DNA of 25,048 nt, from positions 1-25,048 of the IMG/VR virus record IMGVR_UViG_3300025085_000176. One strand, written 5' to 3'. How positions within the stretch are numbered: position 1 is the first letter of the stretch; each line of letters opens with the position of its first letter. The notes below the pieces were generated by a model, which was not told the DNA's origin, made no database searches, and saw nothing but the letters and a program-made list of their open reading frames with translations. Of the stretch, positions 1 through 25,048 are shown piece after piece. The stretch comes from a virus. The position numbers were made by a program, and so were the translations under genes.

Positions 1-568
1 AGGAGATGGTAACTGTATCTTGTTTGTACTGCCTAGACATTCCTATTCCAAGGTATCTAGCTCCAGCACCTCCACTCTTTACGTTACTTTCGTATGATAT
101 CACGCCACCTTGCATTATTAAACCCGCGAACATAAGTGGTTGTAATTTGGTATCTTTTTTAAACTCTTGCCTGGTACTTCTTATGATTTGTCTTTCTTTA
201 GTTACATGGTCTAAACCTACACGCTCTACCACTTCAAAAAAACCATCATTATTGCTACCAGCATGTTTCAACGCTCTTATTAAATAAGCATCTGGGGCTT
301 GTGTTACAGCAGAACTAAAAGTTGCGTACGTACTATTACTTCTACGTTGACCAGTTTGGTCTGTGAACGAACCAGCATAAATTGCTACTACTGGTTTTGT
401 TTTGTTGTTTGTTTTTATGTTAGCAAGTTCTGGAACTAATAATGATCCTATCTCTGGCTTTTCTATTTTTTGTAGTGGTGGTAGATTGTTTTCTAACGGA
501 TCTATTATTATCGCGCAACTAGAAAGTAAAGTTGCCAACAGGTAAAGATATAGTCGTTGTATCACCAT
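1..568 (-). CDS. csgG: CsgG-like curli secretion pore lipoprotein (3' end beyond window)
   Basis: Reading the minus strand from the ATG at 568 gives 189 residues that stay open to the left edge. Residues 1-18 form a lipoprotein signal with lipobox LSSC (Cys18). The body matches CsgG along its length: QTGQ near 71-74, FSSAV near 84-88, ERQIIR near 125-130, and the family's most diagnostic stretch ISYESNVKSGGAGARYLGIG at 157-176. E. coli CsgG is a 277-aa lipoprotein that forms a nonameric outer-membrane channel for curli subunits, so about two thirds is visible here. The start overlaps the end of csgF by 50 nt with no clear ribosome site, which suggests translational coupling. The constriction loop (residues 74-87) differs from E. 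coli: Phe56 (mature E. coli numbering) is kept, but Tyr51 and Asn55 appear to be Ser and Thr and the loop is one residue longer. What it exports in a phage is unknown; no csgA/B-like repeat protein is visible. Confidence 0.92.
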   Translation of the reverse strand, partial: MVIQRLYLYLLATLLSSCAIIIDPLENNLPPLQKIEKPEIGSLLVPELANIKTNNKTKPVVAIYAGSFTDQTGQRRSNSTYATFSSAVTQAPDAYLIRALKHAGSNNDGFFEVVERVGLDHVTKERQIIRSTRQEFKKDTKLQPLMFAGLIMQGGVISYESNVKSGGAGARYLGIGMSRQYKQDTVTIS

Positions 569-956
569 TAGAATCCGTTATTGTTAAAGTTATTATACCG
601 TCAACAACATTATACTCTATAGTGTTACCTTCTAACTCTAAAATACCACTGGTGCTTGCAGTTTCACCAAATAAGTTTTCTACTAGCTGTCTTGATAGCT
701 GTGCATAGATTCTGCTTTCCAAGTTTCTAATAAACCTAGCTAGTGTAGTATTTTCTTTATCTCTTTCTATCTCGTCTTGTAATGCTTTGATCTCTGCTTT
801 TAGAGTCATCTTTCTAGTGTGCATTTGGTTTTCTATAGTCAAATAGTGTGCAGATGTACCAATACCAGAGAATGACGGTGACTTAAATTTATGTACCATT
901 TCATCTGCTGATACAGATAAACATAATACCAATAAACTAATCTTTCCTTTTGTCAT
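519..956 (-). CDS. csgF: CsgF-like curli assembly factor
   Basis: This 145-aa protein has a Sec signal peptide of about 17 residues with a plausible cut after SVSA. The mature N-terminus contains KFKSPSFSG (23-31), which aligns with QFRNPNFGG of E. coli CsgF, the segment that inserts into the CsgG barrel and forms a second constriction. The C-terminal part (about 105-140: IEYNVVDGIITLTITDSNG, then TTTISLP) aligns with the CsgF ending [20 protein letters not shown]. Mature length is about 128 residues against 119 in E. coli. A charged, probably helical insert at 45-80 is the main difference. In curli systems CsgF caps CsgG at the cell surface. The start overlaps the upstream membrane-protein gene by 20 nt and the 3' end overlaps csgG by 50 nt. 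The ribosome site is weak (AAAGAA), again suggesting coupling. Confidence 0.88.
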   Translation of the reverse strand: MTKGKISLLVLCLSVSADEMVHKFKSPSFSGIGTSAHYLTIENQMHTRKMTLKAEIKALQDEIERDKENTTLARFIRNLESRIYAQLSRQLVENLFGETASTSGILELEGNTIEYNVVDGIITLTITDSNGDTTTISLPVGNFTF

Positions 957-1287
957 TTCTTTTTGCTTTACCTATTTTGTTAGTGTCTATTAATTGTGGT
1001 ACACCTAACATGGTTTTAATCATTGTGTCTTGTCTGATAATCTCGTTATCTAACGACCTGACTCTATCTATCAATGCTACAAGAATACCATGTTGTGTGT
1101 CTAGTTTTGTTCCTAGTCTATCTTCCATAGCTGTGAGTGATGTATTAACCTTATCATCTACGGTATCTAATTTAGTTTCCATACCATCTATAATTCTGTT
1201 AATCAGTTTCCATACGAACATACCTAAACCTATAGCCGCAGCTACAGGAAAACCTAACTCGGTTATTAAGGTAACAATGTCGTTCAT
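937..1287 (-). CDS. One-TM coiled-coil membrane protein, holin-like
   Basis: This 116-aa protein has a single hydrophobic segment at about 10-30 (ITELGFPVAAAIGLGMFVWK). A heptad-patterned coiled coil follows at roughly 33-95, and the tail is basic (KIGKAKRNDKRKD). This layout matches small holin or holin-like phage proteins (BhlA/XhlA type), which sit in the inner membrane with the coil in the cytoplasm. The gene lies directly upstream of csgF, overlapping it by 20 nt, so the two are probably translated together. No endolysin or spanin is visible in the window, so a lysis role is inferred from shape and position only. It could equally be an inner-membrane partner of the CsgG/CsgF pair. Confidence 0.75.
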   Translation of the reverse strand: MNDIVTLITELGFPVAAAIGLGMFVWKLINRIIDGMETKLDTVDDKVNTSLTAMEDRLGTKLDTQHGILVALIDRVRSLDNEIIRQDTMIKTMLGVPQLIDTNKIGKAKRNDKRKD

Positions 1288-1367
1288 TTAGATTTTGTTA
1301 ATCTGTCTTCTGTTTTTTGGAATGACCGTTCTAAAAATTTGTCTATAAGATAACTTATAAACTTCAC
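1284..1367 (-). CDS. 27-aa small ORF joining its neighbours by stop/start overlaps
   Basis: A GTG-initiated ORF encodes MKFISYLIDKFLERSFQKTE followed by DRLTKSK. Its GTG overlaps the TGA of the upstream 48-aa gene (GTGA), and its TGA overlaps the ATG of the membrane-protein gene (ATGA). The peptide looks amphipathic, with a basic C-terminus. The two exact 4-nt overlaps fill an otherwise empty gap and match the genome's packing style, which is the main reason to call it. There is no convincing ribosome site and I recognise no family. It may act only as a coupling leader for the membrane protein. Confidence 0.5.
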   Translation of the reverse strand: MKFISYLIDKFLERSFQKTEDRLTKSK

Positions 1368-1510
1368 TTCTTTTTAGCTGTTCTTTTTGCTTTCTTAAAA
1401 GCACTAGCTTTAGGTGCGCCTTTAGTTCCAGGCTTTCTCATTTTCTCATTAGAACCAGCTTTGATTCTTTTTCTTTTTGCATGTATGTTTGCGTATAGTC
1501 CTTTTGGCAT
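1364..1510 (-). CDS. Conserved small basic marine-phage protein (48 aa)
   Basis: The protein begins MPKGLYANIHAKRKRIKAGS and is very rich in Lys/Arg, with the ending AKRTAKKK. A good Shine-Dalgarno site (AAGGAGATAAGT) precedes the ATG at 1510. From memory, near-identical short proteins recur in T7-like and P22-like marine phages close to structural genes, without a known function. The charge suggests nucleic-acid binding or packaging inside the particle, but this is inference. Confidence 0.8.
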   Translation of the reverse strand: MPKGLYANIHAKRKRIKAGSNEKMRKPGTKGAPKASAFKKAKRTAKKK

Positions 1511-1520
1511 ACTTATCTCC

Positions 1521-1793
1521 TTACCATTTTACTTTGTTAGCCCAGTAAGCTGCTGACAACTTACCCTTTGCGATATTCTTAGCGTGTCTCGCTTTAAATG
1601 ATTTTCTTCTAGCTTTGCCCTTGGCAGTCATAGGGTTTTTACCAGCGCCACTAACACCTTGTTGACCAAAGCGAATTAATTTAATCCTGTCTCCTGACTT
1701 TGCTAGAACAGCGTGTGACTTTGTTTTATGGCCAGGTGTACGTTTAGGTTTGTTATAACCCGCGAATTTTTCGCCTCTATATGTTAATGCCAT
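1521..1793 (-). CDS. Conserved basic marine-phage protein, DUF6321-like
   Basis: This 90-aa, strongly basic protein has HKTKSHAVLAK, IKLIRFGQQGVSGAG, and a C-terminal block KARHAKNIAKGK then AAYWANKVKW. These segments match a small conserved family that I recall as DUF6321, common in marine phages. No function is established. The gene is in the minus-strand late unit, 10 nt upstream of the 48-aa basic protein, and is divergent from the 74-aa gene starting at 1815 with only 21 nt between the two starts. The family name is from memory; the conserved nature of the sequence is the safer statement. Confidence 0.8.
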   Translation of the reverse strand: MALTYRGEKFAGYNKPKRTPGHKTKSHAVLAKSGDRIKLIRFGQQGVSGAGKNPMTAKGKARRKSFKARHAKNIAKGKLSAAYWANKVKW

Positions 1794-2039: not shown

Positions 2040-3023
2040 TTATTTTATGGTAACAATTCTTTTTTTAAAAGATGGATCTATCTTTTTACGAGCTTCATCG
2101 TATATTTTTCTTTGTATATTAAATAGCTCTGTTTCTTTTTTAATTAAATCTTCTGAAACCTCTTTGCCTTGAGATAGGGCTTTTTCCCTTAAAGATCTTT
2201 GTATTGTGTAATATTTATGAGTTTTATCAGCAGCCTCCGCCATTGGTTTTGATATGAGTTGAACCTCTGCTATAACTGAGTCACCAGCATCGTCAACGTA
2301 TTTAATTTTTACGCCCCTGGATTGAAATCCAGTGTTTTTGATAAGTTTTTCGCCCTCGTCTATAACATCATATTTTTTATTTAATTGTGCAACGACTTTG
2401 TCTGAGTCAGCAGGCTTATTAACATAGATCCTGGTTCTTATTCCATCTGTTATCTTTTGTACGTTTCCCTGTTTTCTTAAAGCTTTGTCCTGGATGCTTT
2501 CCAAAGACTTAACCTCAACATCAATGGTTTTACCACCGGACATTTTAAATTTAGGTGCTTTTTCTAATCCAAGGTTGTCAGCTATAGACTTAACTTCTGC
2601 CTGAAACCCTGGGTTTAATTTAGTGCTTGTGTTGTATAAATCTTCTGGGCTTTTTATTGCAGCCTGGGTGGATGTTATAAAATCTATCTCCTGGCTTTTA
2701 GGAATATCTGGAGTGTATAAGTATTGTTTTTTACCTGGAACAGATTTTAGTAAACCAGAGCCAACTGTTGCTGCTGCTTTGGCTGGAGCGCCTAAAATGC
2801 CAAGCGCTTCTATCGGGGTATCTGGAACAATAAAATCTTTCATGCCTCTACCTAATTTTTGTAAGTTGGCTATGACTGGATCTGGAGAATATTGTTGTCT
2901 TTTTATCTTTTCAAGATCCATTGGGGATAATGGAGCTGCAATACCTGTACGATTTGGTGGGCTTAGTGGCTTGGAATAAGGAGTGGTTACTCCTGCCTGC
3001 AAAATTTGATTCAACTTATCCAT
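2040..3023 (-). CDS. RelA/SpoT-fold nucleotidyltransferase-like protein, probable virion-associated effector
   Basis: This 327-aa protein has two parts. Residues 1-110 are Pro/Ala/Gly-rich and low in structure, like the N-terminal arms of other phage virion proteins. Residues about 165-275 follow the RelA/SpoT synthetase pattern: VKSLESIQDK (171-180, like the K/RxKxxxSxxxK block); ITDGIRTRI (191-199, like FDVRAVRI of RelA, metal-binding Asp at D193); TGFQSRG (231-237, in place of NGYQSIH); and AEVQL (252-256, like VEIQI, catalytic Glu at E253). Asp, Glu and an aromatic at the G-loop position are kept, but the His of GYxSxH and the Arg of EIQIRT are missing. There is no hydrolase domain. The gene is downstream of portal after two tiny genes, the place where MuF-type toxins sit in other phages. 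It may make (p)ppGpp-like nucleotides or modify tRNA like toxSAS enzymes, or it may be inactive. Confidence 0.65.
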   Translation of the reverse strand: MDKLNQILQAGVTTPYSKPLSPPNRTGIAAPLSPMDLEKIKRQQYSPDPVIANLQKLGRGMKDFIVPDTPIEALGILGAPAKAAATVGSGLLKSVPGKKQYLYTPDIPKSQEIDFITSTQAAIKSPEDLYNTSTKLNPGFQAEVKSIADNLGLEKAPKFKMSGGKTIDVEVKSLESIQDKALRKQGNVQKITDGIRTRIYVNKPADSDKVVAQLNKKYDVIDEGEKLIKNTGFQSRGVKIKYVDDAGDSVIAEVQLISKPMAEAADKTHKYYTIQRSLREKALSQGKEVSEDLIKKETELFNIQRKIYDEARKKIDPSFKKRIVTIK

Positions 3024-3121: not shown

Positions 3122-3333
3122 TAGTGTATCGTCCTTTCTTCATAATATATTATTTCAGAATCTTCTGTCACTTCACCACCAGACATTAAAGACATTATCT
3201 GCATAGCGTGATTTCTATTTCTTGCTTTAATTTCTTTACCAACATAAACCATATCGTCAACAATCACTTCAATATCAAATATTTTGTGGTGGGACATTGC
3301 CTGTAAATAATCCTTGAGCTTGAGCTTTTGCAT
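3121..3333 (-). CDS. Small unknown protein after portal (70 aa)
   Basis: The protein continues MSHHKIFDIEVIVDDMVYVG (13-32), then KARNRNHAMQIMS and an acidic end. It looks like a compact alpha/beta fold without a motif I can name. With the start at 3333 (AAGGA about 10 nt upstream) the gene overlaps the portal 3' end by 59 nt. The internal ATG at 3297 would cut the overlap to 23 nt but has a more distant ribosome site. The short beta-rich sequence and the place after portal suggest a minor head or regulatory role, which is a guess. Confidence 0.65.
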   Translation of the reverse strand: MQKLKLKDYLQAMSHHKIFDIEVIVDDMVYVGKEIKARNRNHAMQIMSLMSGGEVTEDSEIIYYEERTIH

Positions 3334-5425
3334 TTTGTCTTATTCCTTCTCTGTCTCTTTCCATTATTGCATTGATCTCTGCGACATTAACCTGTGCGCC
3401 GTACTTAGCTTGCATCTCTACAACCTTAACTTTAAGCTGTGCTTCTTCTATGTCTCTTTGTCTGTCATCGTCCATGATAATCTTCATTCTGTCTGTTTCA
3501 GCGTCGATCATTGCCTTCTGTGCGCTAACTTGTGCCTTCATTGCTTCGGCCTGTGCAAGCATTTCAGCTGCATCTGGCTTCTGTTCTTCTGGTTGTTGCG
3601 GTGGCATTGGTGGAACTTCTGGATTTATGAAGGATGATGAGTCTTTAAACCCAGCCATTTCTATCATTTTGGTCAATGTATTAGCGTATTGTTGCATTGA
3701 TACCAATGGATTCTGTGGTCCTAGCAATTGCATGATTTGTTCTTGTTTTTGCGCTACATTTTGTAGAACTGAGAACTTTTCTTGATCTGAAGACTTAGAT
3801 ATCGCTACATTTACAATAATATCTTTGTCATTATCCCAGTATCTTGGATCTACTGGTACGAATTTGTTGTTTAATCTATACACATCTTGCGCGTTTTGGT
3901 GCTTGATAACCAAGTTATTAACCGTTTTGAAGATATCTTTGAGGCCACCTTCTGCAAAATGTCTGCATATCAGCTCTACTCTTCCTTGTGCGCCACTCAT
4001 AGTAGCCGAAACAGCTTGCGAGGTGCTAGATTGTAGAGCGTCTGCGTTGAGGCCAGCTGATGCTTTAGATACGCCAGTTCTATTTTCTTTGGCTTCGTCT
4101 AAATATCCTAATACTGGGAACGCTTCTTTACCCACAAACGGCACGGCAAATGGTTGTACCATTCCTGGCGCACGCATCCTAATAGGTTGCCCTATGTCGG
4201 TGTTTAATACATCATCAATATTAACTTGTCCTTCAACAATACCCATGCGTGGGAAGATTGAATGACCTAGTGAGTCTAAAGTGTCACGCATAATTTGTGA
4301 CTTAGCAGCTTGTATAGGTTTTAGATAATCAGCTGGACATGAACCTATAGCTGTGTGCGGTTCTGGATCAGGACAGAACATACATATTGGTAGTTCATCC
4401 CATGGTTCTACATTTACAACATGTAAGCCGTTGCCGATACTACAAACTCTAACGCGTTCGTCTATACCGTCACCATCAAAATCATAGAACAAGTAATGCT
4501 CTACATATAAAACATCTTTTCCGCCAGCATCGTTTCTGTCTGGGTATACCATGTTATCAAATGGGTTTCTTGCTTCTATCTCTTCAAAAGCCTCTGGATC
4601 TACCGCGCTTCCGCCGTAGCCAGCATGTTGTTCTACTTCCTCTTGGTCGTAGCCCATTGCCACCAAATCAGAAACCGACTTAATCATTCTGTGTGCAACG
4701 TAAGATGCTGATTCAAGATCGCGTGCGTGTCTTGATATTAATACTTCCTCTGGTGGTATCGCTTCAATACACACTTGGTTTTTTTGCTTGAGTCTTCTAA
4801 TAGTAAGATCATAGCTTGTTGGTATTTCTTGGGTTATCTCCTCGCCACTAACAGGATCAAGGGTAGTAATACTTTCGGTAACAGAAGACTCTTCTACAAT
4901 TTCTACATCTTTGTCTATGATAAGCGCTTGGTAGGATTGTGGATCTAAACCTGTGTATTCGTGCGTGGTAGCTTTGACTGTATCATCCCAAAACACTTTG
5001 ACAAAACCAGTCTTTCTAACGAGCGCATCTTTAAACGCATCGTATAAAACTTGGAAACCATTATTTTTTTGTTGGATAATATAATTAATATAATCGGTTT
5101 GCTGTTCAGCAAGTTGGATATCCTCTGGACCTTTAGGTACAAATTCTACAACTTTCTTAGTACCAAAGAATGTACGCATGATAGACGGCAACATAAACAA
5201 TATGCTTTCTCTAACATCAGTAGATATAAACTCTGACTGTAGCGAGCTAGTTCCTTCTGGCTCGTTGCCTAAATAATATTCTGTTGACTCGGCTCTGTCC
5301 GAACCGACCTGGTGTATGAAATCACTAGCGTCATCCATTTCGGATTTAATAACGCCGACAAGATTTTCCATGTTGGTTTCTTCTGACACCTTTACGGACA
5401 TTTCTTCTTTGTATTGTTTTGCCAT
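3275..5425 (-). CDS. Portal protein, P22-like family
   Basis: This 716-aa protein follows TerL by 3 nt. Portal features include an N-terminal helical part with DVRESILFMLPSIMRTFFG (about 70-88), the long central alpha/beta region with RNPFDNMVYPDRND and FYDFDGDGIDERVRVC, and FCPDPEPHTAIGSCPADYL followed by a long helical stem region. The C-terminus has a Pro/Gln stretch (PPMPPQQPEEQ) and then a coiled coil rich in Ala, Glu and Lys. P22 portal is 725 aa, so the size fits the P22/BPP-1-like portals of podoviruses. Portals form the dodecameric ring through which TerL pumps DNA and to which the tail attaches. The TerS-TerL-portal order supports the call. Confidence 0.9.
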   Translation of the reverse strand: MAKQYKEEMSVKVSEETNMENLVGVIKSEMDDASDFIHQVGSDRAESTEYYLGNEPEGTSSLQSEFISTDVRESILFMLPSIMRTFFGTKKVVEFVPKGPEDIQLAEQQTDYINYIIQQKNNGFQVLYDAFKDALVRKTGFVKVFWDDTVKATTHEYTGLDPQSYQALIIDKDVEIVEESSVTESITTLDPVSGEEITQEIPTSYDLTIRRLKQKNQVCIEAIPPEEVLISRHARDLESASYVAHRMIKSVSDLVAMGYDQEEVEQHAGYGGSAVDPEAFEEIEARNPFDNMVYPDRNDAGGKDVLYVEHYLFYDFDGDGIDERVRVCSIGNGLHVVNVEPWDELPICMFCPDPEPHTAIGSCPADYLKPIQAAKSQIMRDTLDSLGHSIFPRMGIVEGQVNIDDVLNTDIGQPIRMRAPGMVQPFAVPFVGKEAFPVLGYLDEAKENRTGVSKASAGLNADALQSSTSQAVSATMSGAQGRVELICRHFAEGGLKDIFKTVNNLVIKHQNAQDVYRLNNKFVPVDPRYWDNDKDIIVNVAISKSSDQEKFSVLQNVAQKQEQIMQLLGPQNPLVSMQQYANTLTKMIEMAGFKDSSSFINPEVPPMPPQQPEEQKPDAAEMLAQAEAMKAQVSAQKAMIDAETDRMKIIMDDDRQRDIEEAQLKVKVVEMQAKYGAQVNVAEINAIMERDREGIRQNAKAQAQGLFTGNVPPQNI

Positions 5426-5428
5426 AAA

Positions 5429-6961
5429 TTACCCTATTCTGATTATCCTAGATTTTAGTGGTTTCTTGAAATTATAACCTAAAAAGTTAACGCTTCCACC
5501 AAAACTTGCAGCGGAGGATGCCATGGTCAATGCAAGTGCATCTGCTTTGTCGGGTGATTTAATTCCACGCTTACGCATTTCATCTTTTGATTCTATTTTT
5601 ATTTTGCCAGTAGACGTATATTTATAAAGGGGTGCAGCAAGTTCTGCAACGAGTTCATCGTCTTGTGGTAGTCTGCAATCACGTTGCGTTAACCAGTCTT
5701 TGATCGCAAACCATAATTCCGCGCGTAGGTTTAAATAATTTTTTTTCGTGGCGGGTGCTTCTGCGACATTGACTCCGCGCACGGGCAAGTTCTGCTCGGC
5801 GAGTCTGTCGACCACGCCCGCGCCTAGTCCGATTACATCTACTAGTATTTCTTGCGGTTGCTCTATATTGGTGCATTCGTCGTACATATTTTTTATCACA
5901 CCGCATAACTGCATCAGATCCATAGACTTAAATGACTTAATACTCATTACATGGTTACCTTGTCTAATACATAGCGCGGAGTTATCACCGCCGAATCTTG
6001 CGACATCCAATCCCCATATAATCGGTGCGTTAGCTGTAAGTGATACATCCCTATCAATCGCAGCTTTAACTAAACTCATTGGTATTACGGTATCATCATC
6101 CGCAGATGGAAACTCACCCATCACCTCCACGCGCGCGACGGTGGAATCTTCGCCGTACTGCTCAATCATGCTTTGGAAAAGCTTTTGGTCTGTGCCTTCA
6201 ACCGTGCGTGAGTCTATTTGCACGTTCTTCCAGAAGGATTGTTTAGAGTTAAAGCTGTCGTAGAATGGCCCTGTGTTTCGGCGTGGGTTGGAAAAAGTAA
6301 ACCAGTATCTATTACGCGTTGGCTCGGAGAAGAATCCTTCTGATACAGAATAGATAGGAGCTGGGATACCAGATGCCTCGTCCATAATTAAGCAAACACC
6401 ATAAGAAGAGTGAATACCCGCGAACGCGTCTGGGTTTTCCTCGCTCCATAATTGTGCCTGGGCGTAGTAATAACCAGTATCTATTTTAAGATCGTTAATT
6501 AATGCCTCTTCAAACCAAGGTGCTGGTTTTATGGTTGTTGCTGTTTTATGAAACCAATGTGAATTTATTGATAGCGTTAGCCACTTACCTAACTCCGCCC
6601 AGGTTCTTGATCTAAGCTGTTGTTCGGTGTTAGCGGTAACAATAATGGTTGAACCAAGCCTGGTAGATAACATCCATAGAATGATCCATGCAACTAGTGC
6701 AGATTTACCAATACCACGACCAGAGGCTACAGCAAGTCTAAACATCTCTGGTAAGTCTAATACATTGTTACGCTCAATGTGTATTGCCATTTCTCGTAAA
6801 ATTTTTTCTTGCCACTTCCTTGGTCCTTTAAACTCTTCAAGGGGGGTGTCTTTCTGTCCCCATGGGAATACATACTTAACAAAGTTTACTGGGTTGTCTT
6901 TGATTGGTCCTGACCATAGTTCGGTCATCAACTCGCGCTCTTGTTTTATTCCATATTTCAT
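5429..6961 (-). CDS. terL: Terminase large subunit
   Basis: This 510-aa DNA-packaging motor has both expected domains. In the ATPase, Walker A is SGRGIGKS (80-87), Walker B plus the catalytic Glu is CLIMDEA (190-196), and the coupling motif is TFSNP (222-226). In the C-terminal RNase H-like nuclease, the metal-binding acids lie in GLDVARFGGD (D319), LVDV (D375) and SPDKADALAL (D471/D474). Length and motif spacing are normal, with nothing missing. It works with TerS and the portal ring to cut concatemeric DNA and fill the head. The gene is separated from terS by 142 nt containing a homopolymer tract. Confidence 0.95.
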   Translation of the reverse strand: MKYGIKQERELMTELWSGPIKDNPVNFVKYVFPWGQKDTPLEEFKGPRKWQEKILREMAIHIERNNVLDLPEMFRLAVASGRGIGKSALVAWIILWMLSTRLGSTIIVTANTEQQLRSRTWAELGKWLTLSINSHWFHKTATTIKPAPWFEEALINDLKIDTGYYYAQAQLWSEENPDAFAGIHSSYGVCLIMDEASGIPAPIYSVSEGFFSEPTRNRYWFTFSNPRRNTGPFYDSFNSKQSFWKNVQIDSRTVEGTDQKLFQSMIEQYGEDSTVARVEVMGEFPSADDDTVIPMSLVKAAIDRDVSLTANAPIIWGLDVARFGGDNSALCIRQGNHVMSIKSFKSMDLMQLCGVIKNMYDECTNIEQPQEILVDVIGLGAGVVDRLAEQNLPVRGVNVAEAPATKKNYLNLRAELWFAIKDWLTQRDCRLPQDDELVAELAAPLYKYTSTGKIKIESKDEMRKRGIKSPDKADALALTMASSAASFGGSVNFLGYNFKKPLKSRIIRIG

Positions 6962-10135: not shown

Positions 10136-10570
10136 CTACAGAAGATCCACTAACCCCACTAATAAAAAATGCTTCTTACCACCAGGCTGCGACTTCCTTA
10201 ATCGCTTCTGCTCACCCTCTAACACACACCAGACCACCTCTTTGTCTATCAGCTCAGTCATAGCTCGCCCAGATGTTTTCCTATTAACACCAGTCATCTT
10301 TGCATAATAACTAATCGCATCATGGCTGCTCCAGGTTTCATATCTCCACCGCTCGCACACGGACCAGAGAATCAATTTGGCACTTACTGACAAATCCGTT
10401 CTCCCGCACTCACGCCTGTACCAATCCCAAACCACTCCCCTGGCTCTTACAAAATCACCCTCGCGTCTTGCTAGCTCTAACGGGACAAACACTCCCGCGC
10501 GCTCCCGCTCGCTCGTGTGTGCCGTGATCCACCAGTGATCTTTGCTTACAGGTTTAAATCTTTTGTACAT
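10136..10570 (-). CDS. Helix-turn-helix (winged-helix) protein, possible replication initiator
   Basis: With the start at 10570 (GAGAGGAAAT ribosome site just before) the protein has 144 residues. The upstream frame to 10603 would start inside a hairpin and has no such site. Residues about 60-130 hold a winged-helix pattern (SAKLILWSVCERWRYETWSS, ISYYAKMTGVNRKTSGRAMT, ELIDKEVVW), like helix-turn-helix domains of phage O-type or DnaD-like replication proteins. The gene is GC-richer than most of the window, which may mean recent acquisition. It lies downstream of a tandem repeat array and a leader hairpin, so it may bind the repeats as initiator or repressor. The family assignment is tentative. 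Confidence 0.6.
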   Translation of the reverse strand: MYKRFKPVSKDHWWITAHTSERERAGVFVPLELARREGDFVRARGVVWDWYRRECGRTDLSVSAKLILWSVCERWRYETWSSHDAISYYAKMTGVNRKTSGRAMTELIDKEVVWCVLEGEQKRLRKSQPGGKKHFLLVGLVDLL

Positions 10571-10584
10571 ATTTCCTCTCTCTT

Positions 10585-10616
10585 GAAAGCTGAACCCCCT
10601 CAAGGGGTTCGCTTTC
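10585..10616 (-). promoter_or_regulatory. Leader hairpin before the HTH gene
   Basis: GAAAGC-T-GAACCCC pairs with GGGGTTC-GCTTTC: 13 bp with one bulge and the 5-nt loop CTCAA. It ends 14 nt before the start codon at 10570, just ahead of the ribosome site. On the minus strand it is followed by CAAGAGAG, not a T-run, so it is unlikely to be a terminator. It may control translation or mRNA stability, or form a cruciform near an origin. Confidence 0.6.
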
Positions 10617-10631
10617 TCTATGTATAATTTT

Positions 10632-10637
10632 ATTATA
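10632..10637 (-). promoter_or_regulatory. TATAAT -10 box for the HTH gene
   Basis: TATAAT on the minus strand lies between the repeat array and the leader hairpin. One arm of the 9-bp inverted repeat (10647-10655) falls in the -10/-35 spacer, so a protein bound there would compete with polymerase. The -35 is poor. Confidence 0.4.
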
Positions 10638-10646
10638 CGGATATAT

Positions 10647-10727
10647 GGGAGTGTTCTACTAGAGTTATGTCCCTAACTTACTCAAGGTATGTCCCTAACT
10701 TACTCAAGGTATGTCCCTAACACTCCC
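10647..10727. repeat. 22-bp tandem repeats bounded by a 9-bp inverted repeat (candidate origin or operator)
   Basis: TATGTCCCTAACTTACTCAA (plus GG) occurs at 10666-10687 and again at 10688-10709 without change. A third, partial copy (TATGTCCCTAAC) spans 10710-10721. The array is enclosed by GGGAGTGTT at 10647-10655 and its perfect reverse complement AACACTCCC at 10719-10727. It sits between the stop of the primase-helicase gene and the promoter of the HTH gene. Iterons beside replication genes are typical of phage and plasmid origins, and the same layout could be an autoregulatory operator. The spacer 10604-10735 holds no gene. Confidence 0.8.
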
Positions 10728-10735
10728 TATGGTTA

Positions 10736-12565
10736 TTAAAAATTGTCATATAAATTACTGGTATCTAGCGGTTCATTTAATGGCTCTAACACACCGTTGC
10801 GTCTGAATAATGTTTTAGAGGAATAGTCTACGCCTCCGCTGTTGGATTTTACTAGCGCGCCTCTAACCACCGCCATTCTATCGTAAGGCACATGTTGCTC
10901 TTCACAAATCCTTTCACAATCCTCAACACTTGCCAGTGCCATTACAAGAACAAATCTTATTGAGTCCACGAGTGACGATGCGCCGCGCACGCTGGTTCTC
11001 TGAACCATTGAATCATCTGAGTCCACAGTCAAGCCTTGTTTATTTAAGTGGTGAATAGTTAGCGTGCAACAGTTTAACCTTGCGCTGATGTTTGCACAGT
11101 AAGATCCCCAAAGCTGTCCCGCCTCGTTACTGCTTGATACGTTACCAGTAGTGAATGCCTGGAGCGGATCAAAACAAACCAACTTTAAATCTGGTATAAC
11201 TTGCAGCTCCTCAACCAAATCTTGTGCAAGCTGAGTGACGCCCTCTTCCTTTAACAATATCATTGGTTCTTTTTGCTCTGGAACTGGAAAAATATAAACA
11301 TCATATTCACTTTTAAACCTGTTGCCGTTTGGATCTAATAGATCTAATCTTCTGTGGATCTCTGGTATATCATCTTCAGCTGAAAACAAAATTACGTTTC
11401 CATGTTCCTTAACATCTTTACCCCACCAACGGCCACCACCGCAAGCTATTCTTAATGCCAGTTGAATTACACTCAAAGACTTTCCAACGCCACCTGACGC
11501 TGCTAACAGTCCAGGTTTACCCATTGGTATTAATCCATCCACTAAAAATTTTTGTGGTTCTGGCTTACCGACTAGGTTTCTGATCGCGTATTTTTGTATG
11601 CCTAACTTGTGGTCCATGAGTTCAGCTTTAACTTTATCTAAACCATGCCTTAGATATAAATCATTGTAATCACCACGTTCGCTGGGCAGACGCACGGCCA
11701 CGTTGGGTATTGCAGTTGCACATTCCTGGGCTTTCTTTTCGCCCACTCCATTGTCATCATGGTCCAAAGCCAAAATAATTCTAGCACCCGTTAACCTGCG
11801 AAATTTAGAGACTGCATCCAATGTAAAATTGGCACTAAAAACGCAAGCCACGGGAATTTGGGTAGCTTCATATATTGTTGCGGATGTTGAGTAACCTTCA
11901 GCTACTATCAACTTTTCACAACTTGCTAGTTCATTGAATGTAGTTCCAATTAAAAATACATTACCTTTAATTTCTGACGATGAAGCAAACTTTTTGTTAC
12001 CTTTTTTATCGATATACTGTATAGATCTTATCTGACCTGTAGTAGAATACACGGGAACAATCAAGCTATCGTACGATTGTTTCAACCCATAGTTTTTAAC
12101 CTTTTTATTCGTGAGATATTCATGTTCAATAACATTTTGACATTTATCAAATTTTTCCCTTATCTCTATAGCCACCTCATCCTGCCTAGCCTTCCGCTTA
12201 ATACTCTCTTCTTTCGCAGCCTGCTCCATTTTTTTCTGTAAGGCTTCTCTATCAACCTGGCTTAATGTAGAGGAACTAACAGAACTCCACTTACCCTCAA
12301 AACCAGTCTTCCAATTACCATAAGTGGCAAAGTGATGGCCATTGAATGTATTGACTACATACCAGCCTGATCTAGCGCCACCTAAGTCTGGCTTCATTCC
12401 TGGTAACGCTGTGGGTACTCTGACTATTTCTCCAGACGCTTGTAAATGATTTACCTGCAAGCCTTGCGCCTGCATCTCATTCATTAAATCATTTATTGTT
12501 TTTGTTTCTTTGTTTTTTGTTTCAAATAATATGTTTCTATCGTTGCAGTATTTTTTTAGATCCAT
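10736..12565 (-). CDS. Toprim primase / RecA-like helicase fusion
   Basis: This 609-aa replication protein joins a Toprim primase to a RepA/DnaB-type ATPase. Toprim motifs: LIVAEGYSTSATIYEAT (219-235; E223) and IILALDHDDNG (263-273; D268/D270). ATPase motifs: Walker A ASGGVGKS (356-363), FSAEDD (394-399), Walker B LVCFDPLQ (462-469) and LTIHHLNKQG. Phage proteins of this kind unwind the fork and lay primers, as T7 gp4 does. I see no zinc-binding CxxC motif at the N-terminus, which T7 gp4 needs for template reading. The preceding gene, overlapping by 29 nt, encodes a Cys/His protein that might supply it. It is the last gene of the replication operon, next to the repeat array. Confidence 0.88.
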   Translation of the reverse strand: MDLKKYCNDRNILFETKNKETKTINDLMNEMQAQGLQVNHLQASGEIVRVPTALPGMKPDLGGARSGWYVVNTFNGHHFATYGNWKTGFEGKWSSVSSSTLSQVDREALQKKMEQAAKEESIKRKARQDEVAIEIREKFDKCQNVIEHEYLTNKKVKNYGLKQSYDSLIVPVYSTTGQIRSIQYIDKKGNKKFASSSEIKGNVFLIGTTFNELASCEKLIVAEGYSTSATIYEATQIPVACVFSANFTLDAVSKFRRLTGARIILALDHDDNGVGEKKAQECATAIPNVAVRLPSERGDYNDLYLRHGLDKVKAELMDHKLGIQKYAIRNLVGKPEPQKFLVDGLIPMGKPGLLAASGGVGKSLSVIQLALRIACGGGRWWGKDVKEHGNVILFSAEDDIPEIHRRLDLLDPNGNRFKSEYDVYIFPVPEQKEPMILLKEEGVTQLAQDLVEELQVIPDLKLVCFDPLQAFTTGNVSSSNEAGQLWGSYCANISARLNCCTLTIHHLNKQGLTVDSDDSMVQRTSVRGASSLVDSIRFVLVMALASVEDCERICEEQHVPYDRMAVVRGALVKSNSGGVDYSSKTLFRRNGVLEPLNEPLDTSNLYDNF

Positions 12566-23125: not shown

Positions 23126-23233
23126 TTACTTCTTAAATTTGGATTTTATTAACTCAATCCATTCTGGTTTCTTTTTATATATTATAAACAATATTACGCC
23201 TGTTATGACAATTATCTCTATCAAGACTTCCAT
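23126..23233 (-). CDS. 35-aa single-TM protein
   Basis: ATG 23233 is preceded by AGGAGAGTAAT. The product [20 protein letters not shown] then [15 protein letters not shown] has one N-terminal TM segment (about 3-19) and a basic cytoplasmic tail. It lies between two tail genes in the late operon. Small phage proteins of this shape can be holins, pinholins or anti-holins, but nothing proves that here. Confidence 0.65.
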
Positions 23234-23234
23234 A

Positions 23235-23591
23235 TTACTCTCCTATGGTTTTTGTTTCAGTAGTTGGGTTAATCTCTTCAGCTATTTTAGAGTCTAAAGC
23301 AGATTTTAAGTTTGCTACTTCCTCTTCACCCATAATGCCTTCTACCCAACCAGTAACTACTGCATTGGTTAAGTCTGCAAAAGGTATAAAGTCAGAACCA
23401 ATATCCTCTAGTGATAATGATTGTGTGCCATAAACACTAGCAGTATATGGTACTTGCACTCCATCTACTTCATGTGTCTCGCTGCTCTCAGCGTTTAGTC
23501 TGTAATGTACGTTATATACTGTGTCAGTATGTTCTTCGTATGTGGGATAAACGTCTACTGTTTTGCAATCCCAAGTGTATGTATTTGCCAT
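23235..23591 (-). CDS. Conserved tail-region protein (118 aa), DUF7936-like
   Basis: The start ANTYTWDCKTVDVYPTYEEH and the segments VYNVHYRLNAE, FIPFADLTNAVVTGWVE and LKSALDSKIAEEINP match a small family frequent beside tail-fibre genes in cyanophages and other marine phages (I recall it as DUF7936). Its function is not known; a fibre chaperone or small tail attachment is possible. It stands 12 nt downstream of the S74 fibre gene and has its own AGGAGAAAT ribosome site. Confidence 0.72.
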   Translation of the reverse strand: MANTYTWDCKTVDVYPTYEEHTDTVYNVHYRLNAESSETHEVDGVQVPYTASVYGTQSLSLEDIGSDFIPFADLTNAVVTGWVEGIMGEEEVANLKSALDSKIAEEINPTTETKTIGE

Positions 23592-23603
23592 GTTATATTT
23601 CTC

Positions 23604-25048
23604 CTATATTGCTGCAATTATAAATGCTAAGAGTTCATTATACCTGACTCCTAACCTAGTTTTCTCTTCGCCTGTTGTTTCGTCTGTCCAAGTGGTTGAT
23701 ATAAACATACCATAATCACCTGCATCTAAACCTTCAGCACTAAAAGCCTGTTGTAAATCTTGTGCCATTATACCAAAATGTATTCTAGCATCATCACCTT
23801 TATCAGCTACAGCAGACTTCCATCTGTACTTTTTCAGTAATCCTTTAGCTGCAACTGCAACTCTAGTTTCTGCTTCTGATAAATCTTCTATGTCTTGTTT
23901 TTCGTTTATGTCTGATGTTTGGATAGTTCCGTTGGTGGCATATATGTCTTTGAATCTAAAAGTAGCACCACCCAAATCTATCTCATTATCATCTCTAGTA
24001 TTGCTTAACATTGGTGAAATTTTGTTGCCACTAAAGTAAAGACCTGCTTTATTGGTTGTACCTGATATTGTTAAGTTACCACCATTAGAACCAATACTTC
24101 CAACTGTTGAGCCGTCTTTTCTGAATTGCAGTATTTCACCATCACTACCTGTATTATTTAATATTAAACAAGGTTGTGTTCCTGAAGATTCTCTAGCAAT
24201 TGTAGATGGACCATTCGGGTCTAGTAAAATACCACCACCTGAAGTTGCACTATATAGTGTTGTTGAAGTAGTCCCAACAAGTAGATTCCCCGAGGCATCC
24301 AGTCTCATATGTTCTGTATATGGAGAATAACCTGTAAAAATATGGTTATTGGCATTAATGTATAACGGAGAACCTTGGCTACGGATAATATTATTTGTAC
24401 CATCGTGTCCTATTTTTAAATCGCTTCCTGTTCCTGCTAAAATAAATTCATTATCACCAAGTTTCAAACCACCAACATTAGCTGTTCCTGAAAGGTGAAG
24501 GTCTTTGAATCTTGAACTAGATACACCTAAATCAATAGTTCCATCATTATTACTTGTACCTCCGACAGTTCTAGGGCGAATGTCTGACGAAGCTAACATC
24601 AAGCTAAAGTTACTAGATGATTCTATATAAGGGTTGCCTGAATAAGTACCAATACTTCCAACTGTTGTGCCATCTTTTCTGAAAGAAACTATATCACCAT
24701 CTGAAGAAAGTCTGTTTAGATAAAGTGTAGTACCGCCACTTCTTGCAATAGCTGAAGCACTGTTTGGTTTTAAATTTATACCAGTTGCAGAATTACTACT
24801 TGATAAAGTGCTGCTAGTAGTCCCCACCAACAGATTGCCCGAGGAATCCAGTCTCATGGATTCACTTAGGGTTGAGCTAGTTGAACCTGATGAAGTGTAG
24901 AACTTCATTGCACTTTCAGCAGATAGATTTCCTGTGCTTGTAAGTTCGACATCAATCGCACCAAGAACTTTATCGTATCCTGCTACAAATTGAGATGTGT
25001 TTTGACTAAATGTTAAAGATGCACTTTTACCACTTCCTGCTAAAGAGG
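23604..25048 (-). CDS. Tail fibre with C-terminal peptidase S74 chaperone (5' end beyond window)
   Basis: The frame stays open upstream of the ATG at 24908 to the right edge (for example FVAGYDKVLGAIDVELTSTG), so that ATG is internal and at least 480 residues are seen. Counting from it, two similar shaft modules occupy about 18-145 and 201-330, each with MRLD(S/A)SGNLLVGTTS and FRKDG(S/T)TVGSIG. The C-terminal 100 residues are an intramolecular chaperone of the S74 family: TSDINEKQDIEDLSEAETRV, KKYRWK, FGIMAQDLQQAF and VRYNELLAFIIAAI. The self-cleaving dyad is present as S332 and K337, five residues apart as in phage endosialidases. The chaperone would fold the trimer and then be released. 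The fibre probably sets host range. Confidence 0.88.
   Translation of the reverse strand, partial: SLAGSGKSASLTFSQNTSQFVAGYDKVLGAIDVELTSTGNLSAESAMKFYTSSGSTSSTLSESMRLDSSGNLLVGTTSSTLSSSNSATGINLKPNSASAIARSGGTTLYLNRLSSDGDIVSFRKDGTTVGSIGTYSGNPYIESSSNFSLMLASSDIRPRTVGGTSNNDGTIDLGVSSSRFKDLHLSGTANVGGLKLGDNEFILAGTGSDLKIGHDGTNNIIRSQGSPLYINANNHIFTGYSPYTEHMRLDASGNLLVGTTSTTLYSATSGGGILLDPNGPSTIARESSGTQPCLILNNTGSDGEILQFRKDGSTVGSIGSNGGNLTISGTTNKAGLYFSGNKISPMLSNTRDDNEIDLGGATFRFKDIYATNGTIQTSDINEKQDIEDLSEAETRVAVAAKGLLKKYRWKSAVADKGDDARIHFGIMAQDLQQAFSAEGLDAGDYGMFISTTWTDETTGEEKTRLGVRYNELLAFIIAAI
23919..24308 (-). repeat. Fibre shaft module, copy 2
   Basis: This copy is related to the module at 24474-24857 at protein and DNA level. 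Shared marks are the start (MRLDASGNLLVGTTS), FRKDGSTVGSIG and IDLGGATFRFKD, offset by 183-185 residues. Confidence 0.7.
24474..24857 (-). repeat. Fibre shaft module, copy 1
   Basis: This partner of the module at 23919-24308 has MRLDSSGNLLVGTTS, FRKDGTTVGSIG and IDLGVSSSRFKD in the same order. The DNA coding for the VGTT and TVGSIG parts remains clearly alike, so the duplication is still visible in nucleotides. Confidence 0.7.

Follow-up and report, generated by a model that had tools for sequence, protein, structure and literature searches.

The window analysed here is an entire virus record of 25,048 bases. It contains the upstream half of a phage cassette of six genes, which encode, in order, a small membrane/coiled-coil protein, CsgF, CsgG, a curlin-like protein, a protein with a FecR domain and an adenylate cyclase with a CHASE2 domain. 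Judged from sequence comparison, the cassette is exchanged between phage contexts. The explanation that we favour, held with moderate confidence over the whole chain from pore assembly to signalling, is that the cassette exports a curli-like surface fibre.

CsgG and CsgF in the window

The features of the record on which the analysis rests are as follows.

1..127, no strand: record edge; exactly 127 nt common to contig L012, which stops at the same base (a common suffix)
2..568, minus strand: csgG, first 189 codons from the ATG; Pfam CsgG 100.1 bits, E 1.4e-28, cut-off 20.8
519..956, minus strand: csgF, 145 aa; Pfam CsgF (PF10614) 68.3 bits, E 9.3e-19, cut-off 25.8, profile positions 7-132 of 132
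937..1287, minus strand: 116-aa putative membrane/coiled-coil protein, first gene of the cassette
1364..1510, minus strand: 48-aa basic protein, left neighbour of the cassette site
1521..1793, minus strand: 90-aa basic protein, PHROG 7595 (E 8.9e-39), a phage gene flanking the cassette site
3275..5425, minus strand: SU10-type portal protein, Pfam SU10_portal E 9.9e-193; anchor for the comparison of filled and empty sites
5429-6961, minus strand: terminase-like protein of the late region

The identity of the genes in the cassette is close to certain. As the sequence-only reading had proposed, CsgG carries both a lipobox (LLSSC) and the block ISYESNVKSGGAGARYLGIG, csgF overlaps csgG by 50 nt (519-568), and the pair lies in a phage late unit, with the SU10-type portal and the terminase-like protein on the same record; the profile search that it suggested places both proteins above their Pfam cut-offs. 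The CsgG fragment covers positions 7-130 of the 210 in the Pfam profile (PF03783), and the 3' end of the gene runs off the record. In contig L002, where the protein reaches its full length of 287 aa, the Pfam score rises to 156.2 bits (E 9.7e-46). NCBIfam prefers CsgG (8.3e-46) to HfaB (8.1e-4), with both scores under the NCBIfam cut-offs (156.7 of 505 and 18.7 of 300 bits, respectively).

The solved CsgG, a nonameric pore of the curli system, was matched at 1.5e-60 by a profile of eight phage CsgG proteins, across which Cys18 is invariant; of the 162 complete CsgG ORFs, counted with re-fetched contigs, 158 show the lipobox pattern. In CsgF, a FKSPSFSG stretch that we take to resemble E. coli CsgF follows the signal peptide and is a candidate for the N-terminal segment that inserts into the CsgG neck. 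A PDB search with the single CsgF sequence returned no CsgF match, only noise.

On the minus strand, the genes of the window run from the terminase-like protein through the SU10-type portal, a RelA/SpoT-domain protein, the two small basic proteins and the 116-aa protein to CsgF and CsgG. The window portal is 41.5% identical to that of Sinorhizobium phage phiM5 and 32.6% to that of Pelagibacter phage HTVC106P, and the terminase is 47.5% identical to that of phage DSL-LC05 and 35.4% to that of epsilon15. Records in this lineage, with its SU10-type portal, are 35-37 kb long. The RelA/SpoT domain lies in a 327-aa protein between the portal and the small basic genes (2040-3023, minus strand; PF04607 30.1 bits, cut-off 27), a possible phage alarmone enzyme judging by this domain, and only some relatives carry such a gene. 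At the other end of the record, the region around a 118-aa ORF (23235-23591), at about 23126-23611, matches at 84-93% identity the sequence that precedes the csg module in L054, L055, L056, L058 and L078, and perhaps marks a second insertion site of the cassette.

Continuation past the record edge

Since the record ends inside csgG, the window cannot show an absence of curli subunits. Contig L002 (15,041 nt) is identical to the window over 7,683 nt up to the edge, which falls at L002 position 8,568, and extends 6.5 kb further. Farther upstream the two diverge, which makes L002 a close relative rather than a second copy of the record. It carries the following genes of the cassette at and past the edge.

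L002 8001-8864: csgG, complete, 287 aa
L002 8806-9516: curlin-like gene with a secreted product, directly after csgG
L002 9347-10546: FecR-domain gene
L002 10546-12294: gene for CHASE2 plus a class III cyclase

Beyond the cyclase, L002 encodes a resolvase-like protein, a holin with three transmembrane segments (PF11351), an M15 endolysin and a scaffold-like protein. Among the contigs collected here, six contain the last 127 nt of the window and reach further (L002, L007, L008, L009, L010 and L163), and the curlin-like gene is seen in all of them. A stretch of 4,109 nt starting 127 nt before the window edge (L002:8442-12550) is identical in L002, L007, L009 and L010, and the flanking backbones of L002 and the other three are about 85% identical. 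The window edge is probably a branch in an assembly graph, arising from two phages that share an identical stretch, with an apparent word length of 127 nt. L002 resembles L006 both before and beyond the shared stretch, and it is therefore probably a true recombinant rather than a chimera.

The earlier description of a pore pair without curli subunits is thus an artefact of the edge. L002 has a curlin-like gene after csgG, as do all 77 loci with at least 1,500 nt downstream in the csgG-anchored set of 82, which comprises the best 80 of 107 IMG/VR relatives together with HTVC008M and Melnitz; we therefore reject the reading of a pore without subunits. The open frame of 287 aa in L002 likewise rules out, for that contig, the frameshifted csgG 3' end that had been raised as a possible objection.

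The secreted repeat protein

The curlin-like protein of L002, which lies outside the window, scores 13.1 bits against a cut-off of 20.7 for Pfam Curlin_rpt. Its homology to the curlins of myophages is clear (hhalign E 1.8e-18, and 6.6e-17 and 6.2e-14 with a podophage-only profile), and three of the four proteins of HTVC008M and Melnitz pass the Curlin_rpt cut-off, the first HTVC008M protein being the one that fails. Similarity to bacterial curlins was sought with the podophage-only profile among the 255 ORFs of four loci. The top match was the phage-type locus L247, followed at ranks 2-4 by curlins near bacterial csgG in L244, L245 and L246, whose E-values are weak (0.0015, 0.028 and 0.56). 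The other, longer curlin of L245 (761 aa) was absent among the 12 matches listed. A profile that includes the myophage rows gave 0.0034, 3.8e-9 and 0.0006 for the curlins of these three loci, which themselves pass Curlin_rpt. Against a set of bacterial curlins, hhalign returned a probability of 52% (E 1.4e-4).

The AlphaFold2 model of the protein consists of strand-turn-strand repeats (pLDDT 70.4, pTM 0.69). Foldseek found no PDB match to it at E <= 0.001, and VIA-align placed SufB/D-type and other beta-helices first (Z ~17), with CsgA not found among the 50 matches listed; the VIA-align result was counted only as support for a beta-solenoid. We take the secreted repeat protein to be a diverged curlin-like beta-solenoid. 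It might instead be a soluble or wall-attached beta-solenoid, acting as a decoy, a receptor mask or an enzyme-like protein and using the same pore. The weak direct similarity to bacterial curlins and the SufB/D-type matches of the model would suit such a protein, yet we regard it as rather unlikely given the homology to myophage curlins and a CsgG and CsgF neighbourhood like that of the three bacterial curli loci looked at.

Content, order and selection of the cassette

Each search retained its best 80 loci (of 107 relatives for csgG, of at least 597 for the portal and of 177 for the small gene), and the counts therefore lean toward close relatives. The profiles of the cassette families were built from the loci of this analysis, HTVC008M and Melnitz included. 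Among the 82 csgG-anchored loci (best 80 of 107 plus the two cultured phages) with enough flank, a FecR-domain gene follows csgG in 77 of 77 and the cyclase in 50 of 50, while csgF precedes csgG in 70 of 70 and the small membrane gene precedes csgF in 62 of 62.

For the six genes in six locus pairs, compared with gene overlaps trimmed, dN/dS ranges from 0.025 to 0.167, leaving aside the curlin-like, FecR and cyclase genes of the L002/L007 pair, the compared parts of which are identical. These values indicate that the cassette is maintained as working genes. The class III cyclase motifs, scored for the roles that we take them to have, are kept in 138-139 of 140 complete cyclase ORFs (re-fetches counted).

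The sequence-only reading had assigned the pore to something other than curli on the premise that subunits were missing. With a secreted curlin-like repeat protein behind csgG in every locus that reaches far enough (77/77; best 80 of 107 plus two), and under purifying selection, that premise is gone.

Another use of the pore would be import, in which an ungated CsgG admits larger nutrients or cofactors to the infected cell, with FecR hinting at iron or siderophores. This has been suggested in the available text of PMC7029224 and PMC9599517, and Pfam scans of the ORFs submitted from the window, from L002 and from the HTVC008M and Melnitz modules gave no match to CsgE. However, import leaves CsgF and the curlin-like protein unexplained. 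Moreover, the FecR-domain proteins scanned have no second Pfam domain over cut-off, and the name FecR therefore says little about iron. Import is, in our assessment, quite unlikely. The AlphaFold2 model of the FecR-domain protein (pLDDT 30, pTM 0.15) was set aside.

Several further features of the cassette were observed. The FecR-domain proteins at L002:9347-10546 and L082:5061-6167 end in an I-x-I-x-Q strand, as do the curlin-like proteins of HTVC008M and Melnitz. In L050, from another phage context, a DNA methyltransferase-like gene (PHROG 67; 10537-11214) stands between FecR and the cyclase. One IMG/VR contig (L208/L212) carries the module twice, over 5,439 nt at 99.6% identity, with FecR and cyclase in one long frame in one copy; the double module is either a tandem duplication or an assembly misjoin.

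The small membrane/coiled-coil gene

In our reading of its sequence, the 116-aa protein would have a single hydrophobic stretch, with a middle part resembling a coiled coil and a tail rich in basic residues. All of its Pfam matches are below cut-off, NCBIfam gave none, and neither library shows a kinase domain in it, nor did Pfam find one in one homologue each from HTVC008M and Melnitz. Starting from the small gene (best 80 of 177), csgF follows in all 76 occurrences with enough flank. In the bacterial curli loci L244-L246 the phage profile of the gene matched nothing at E <= 0.01, and the similarity of the gene to holin families is weak (PHROG E 0.011 and 0.015). In two contigs (L148:13308-13658 and L161:3480-3830) the gene immediately precedes the holin and csg genes are absent; it stands there either as the remnant of a lost cassette or as an independent lysis-associated gene.

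Exchange between phage contexts

The same six genes are found beside tail-fibre and virion genes in L027, L035, L050, L055 and L071. Twenty-one such records were searched for an SU10-type portal: six have a distant one (E 2e-13 to 4e-24, where three records from the lineage of the window give 9e-194 to 5e-196), and the other 15, perhaps fragments, show none. One of the distant portals shares 31-36% identity with the portals of HTVC115P, HTVC033P and roseophages.

The history of the cassette was followed through CsgG, for which 162 complete ORFs (re-fetches counted) yielded 137 that could be classified by context and 62 that were kept as distinct. Among the 25 ORFs dropped are those of L118, L145 and L147, which carry markers of two contexts. 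The clade test was run after a first CsgG tree with loose context labels had been seen, and the final tree used the classified loci. In this quick tree of 62 distinct CsgG proteins the window's context does not form one clade, and the AU test rejects such a clade (p 4e-60). The tree needs 10 changes of context, and its well-supported branches alone force at least five for the window's context. Furthermore, the identical 4.1-kb stretch fits a recent exchange of most of the module.

Filled and empty sites

Whether a phage of the window's lineage carries the cassette was scored at the portal-anchored site, an empty site being one that reaches the resolvase, holin or endolysin genes without any module gene. 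With one locus per contig, the 80 portal-anchored loci (best 80 of at least 597) comprise 23 with csgF/csgG, 30 that are empty, two with the small gene alone and 25 that are too short; these counts are used in place of a table of 57 spanning loci in which some contigs appear twice. When the endolysin must be reached, the same 80 (best of at least 597) divide into six filled, 25 empty, two with the small gene alone and 47 that do not span the site, a requirement biased toward empty sites, since a filled one is about 5 kb longer.

Filled and empty sites occur in phages with nearly the same portal, as in the pairs L104/L111 (97.8% portal DNA identity), L018/L091 (96.0%) and L105/L120 (95.9%), and these are natural pairs for comparison. 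The gene for the 90-aa basic protein (1521-1793) is present in both filled and empty loci, and that for the 48-aa basic protein is found next to the cassette and, in several loci, also borders the empty site. Between L084 (the L002 contig) and L144, homology breaks off close to the end of the 48-aa gene (L084:7243) and returns two bases past the cyclase stop (12358), leaving 5,114 nt in L084 and 22 nt in L144. Such sharp boundaries indicate that the six genes are gained and lost together, except in the two contigs that have only the small gene.

The empty site bears on two further explanations. The first is that the gene set is host DNA or an assembly error and no phage gene set at all, as had been feared when misassembled host DNA was named as a possible undoing of the reading. 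The 127-nt shared sequence at the window edge, as at an assembly-graph branch, and the contig with a 99.6% identical module repeat might be cited for it. However, portal and terminase lie on the record itself, and the same gene order recurs across the 82 loci (best 80 of 107 plus two) as far as each reaches. The cassette also occurs in records with two kinds of portal and in the cultured phages HTVC008M and Melnitz, and relatives have an empty site. Host DNA is ruled out by the portal and terminase, the gene order across loci and the empty site, and the explanation as a whole is scarcely credible.

The second is that CsgG-CsgF opens or depolarises the outer membrane, serving to time lysis or acting like a pinholin, as proposed for Melnitz. 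In the window's lineage the cassette does stand just upstream of the holin (PF11351) and the M15 endolysin, and the small gene is weakly holin-like and, in two contigs, alone beside the holin; the published proposal, in the available text of PMC9004378, rests on the pore genes, modelling and synteny. Yet the three-TM holin is kept in 20 of the 25 empty-site loci chosen for reaching the M15 endolysin, and the other contexts examined place the cassette next to tail and virion genes. In addition, a curlin-like gene under purifying selection accompanies the pore in all 77 loci that reach far enough (best 80 of 107 plus two); this deprives the published reading of phage CsgGF as a lysis pore of its main premise, and Melnitz itself has two annotated curlin associated repeat proteins with Pfam support. 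A pore acting by itself is therefore unlikely.

Proposed function

Export of a curli-like fibre, by comparison, seems fairly probable. Late in infection, the phage would make a nonameric CsgG pore in the host outer membrane, capped on the outside by CsgF. The curlin-like protein, exported by Sec, would pass through this pore and assemble on the surface as a curli-like fibre or coat, while the FecR-domain protein and the membrane CHASE2 cyclase might sense envelope or secretion load and set cAMP. The surface layer could serve the phage by aggregating neighbouring hosts or by blocking competing phages.

A broader and more tentative proposal, which we consider possible rather than probable, is that of a mobile six-gene cassette, swapped between unrelated marine phage lineages, that builds a surface fibre through a phage-specific form of type VIII secretion. 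The small membrane/coiled-coil protein, seen here only in phage-like loci, would join CsgG and CsgF, and the FecR/CHASE2-cyclase pair would couple secretion to cAMP.

The SAR11 and OM43 hosts are said, in the available text of PMC9599517 and PMC9004378, to lack genes for a protein layer of this kind. If the fibre reading is true, marine phages remodel the surface of the infected cell, which bears on aggregation and on competition between phages.

Comparison with known systems

Chromosomal curli loci in the class of a Maricaulis MAG (L244-L246, 15-16 kb) share with the phages a csgF that adjoins csgG and curlin-repeat genes nearby, whereas the phage profiles of the small gene, FecR and cyclase had no match in them at E <= 0.01. 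In the genome sample searched such bacterial loci are rare: CsgF scored over the cut-off in four of 240 genomes, and in one of these through phage-type loci alone. A search of the genome contigs with a single CsgG found no relative, and one with a CsgG alignment found three loci, L235 with CsgG alone and L234 and L236 with a phage-type cassette; the latter two look like phage contigs binned into MAGs. An unannotated GenBank entry titled as a Salmonella phage (OR851715.1, 1,499 bp) contains a CsgG-like stretch of 38% identity, and is perhaps a bacterial csgG rather than a phage one.

The statement in the sequence-only reading that csgG/csgF-like genes had been noted in marine phages is borne out by PMC7029224, PMC9004378 and PMC9599517, as far as their available text goes. 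A phage-borne curli module is thus already in print. The text available of these papers does not name the SU10-portal lineage, nor did titles or abstract openings in a limited literature search indicate a csg module in it.

In the podophages of the HTVC023P type, the available text of PMC9599517 describes csgF, csgG, a curlin-repeat gene and FecR in an invariant order, in many cases joined by an adenylate cyclase, and no CsgE, the module always being preceded by one, sometimes two, histidine kinases; it also reports curlin genes in myophages. The mean genome length given there for this type is 58.8 kb, in contrast to the 35-37 kb of the window's lineage with its SU10-type portal, and the terminase and portal of that lineage resemble those of epsilon15-, DSL-LC05- and phiM5-like phages, unlike the HTVC023P type. 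The GOV2.0 contig survey of the same paper may, from the text available, hold SU10-portal phages under its Podoviridae label. A further difference is that the gene before csgF lacks a kinase domain here. HTVC008M and Melnitz have two homologues of the small gene in that position, matching the one or two kinases of PMC9599517, so that, judged from position, the published "histidine kinase" label probably refers to the small gene.

For pelagimyophages, the available text of PMC7029224 describes csgF/csgG and proposes sibling capture. HTVC008M (KC465899, Kyanoviridae) has the same order as the cassette described here, with two small membrane genes, CsgF, CsgG, a curlin-like gene, FecR, a second curlin-like gene and the cyclase; its CsgG is 46% identical over 70% of the window fragment, and its second curlin-like gene, between FecR and the cyclase, is absent in L002. 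In Melnitz, the available text of PMC9004378 proposes a lysis role for CsgGF, states that csgA/csgB are lacking and reports no clumping of infected cells. Nevertheless, the Melnitz record (MZ577097) has the same cassette order, and GenBank annotates two curlin associated repeat proteins near csgG in it; together with their Pfam curlin repeats, this argues against the premise, in the text available, that csgA/csgB are lacking. To these known systems the present analysis adds the SU10-portal lineage, its empty site, exchange between phage contexts, and a small gene without a kinase domain.
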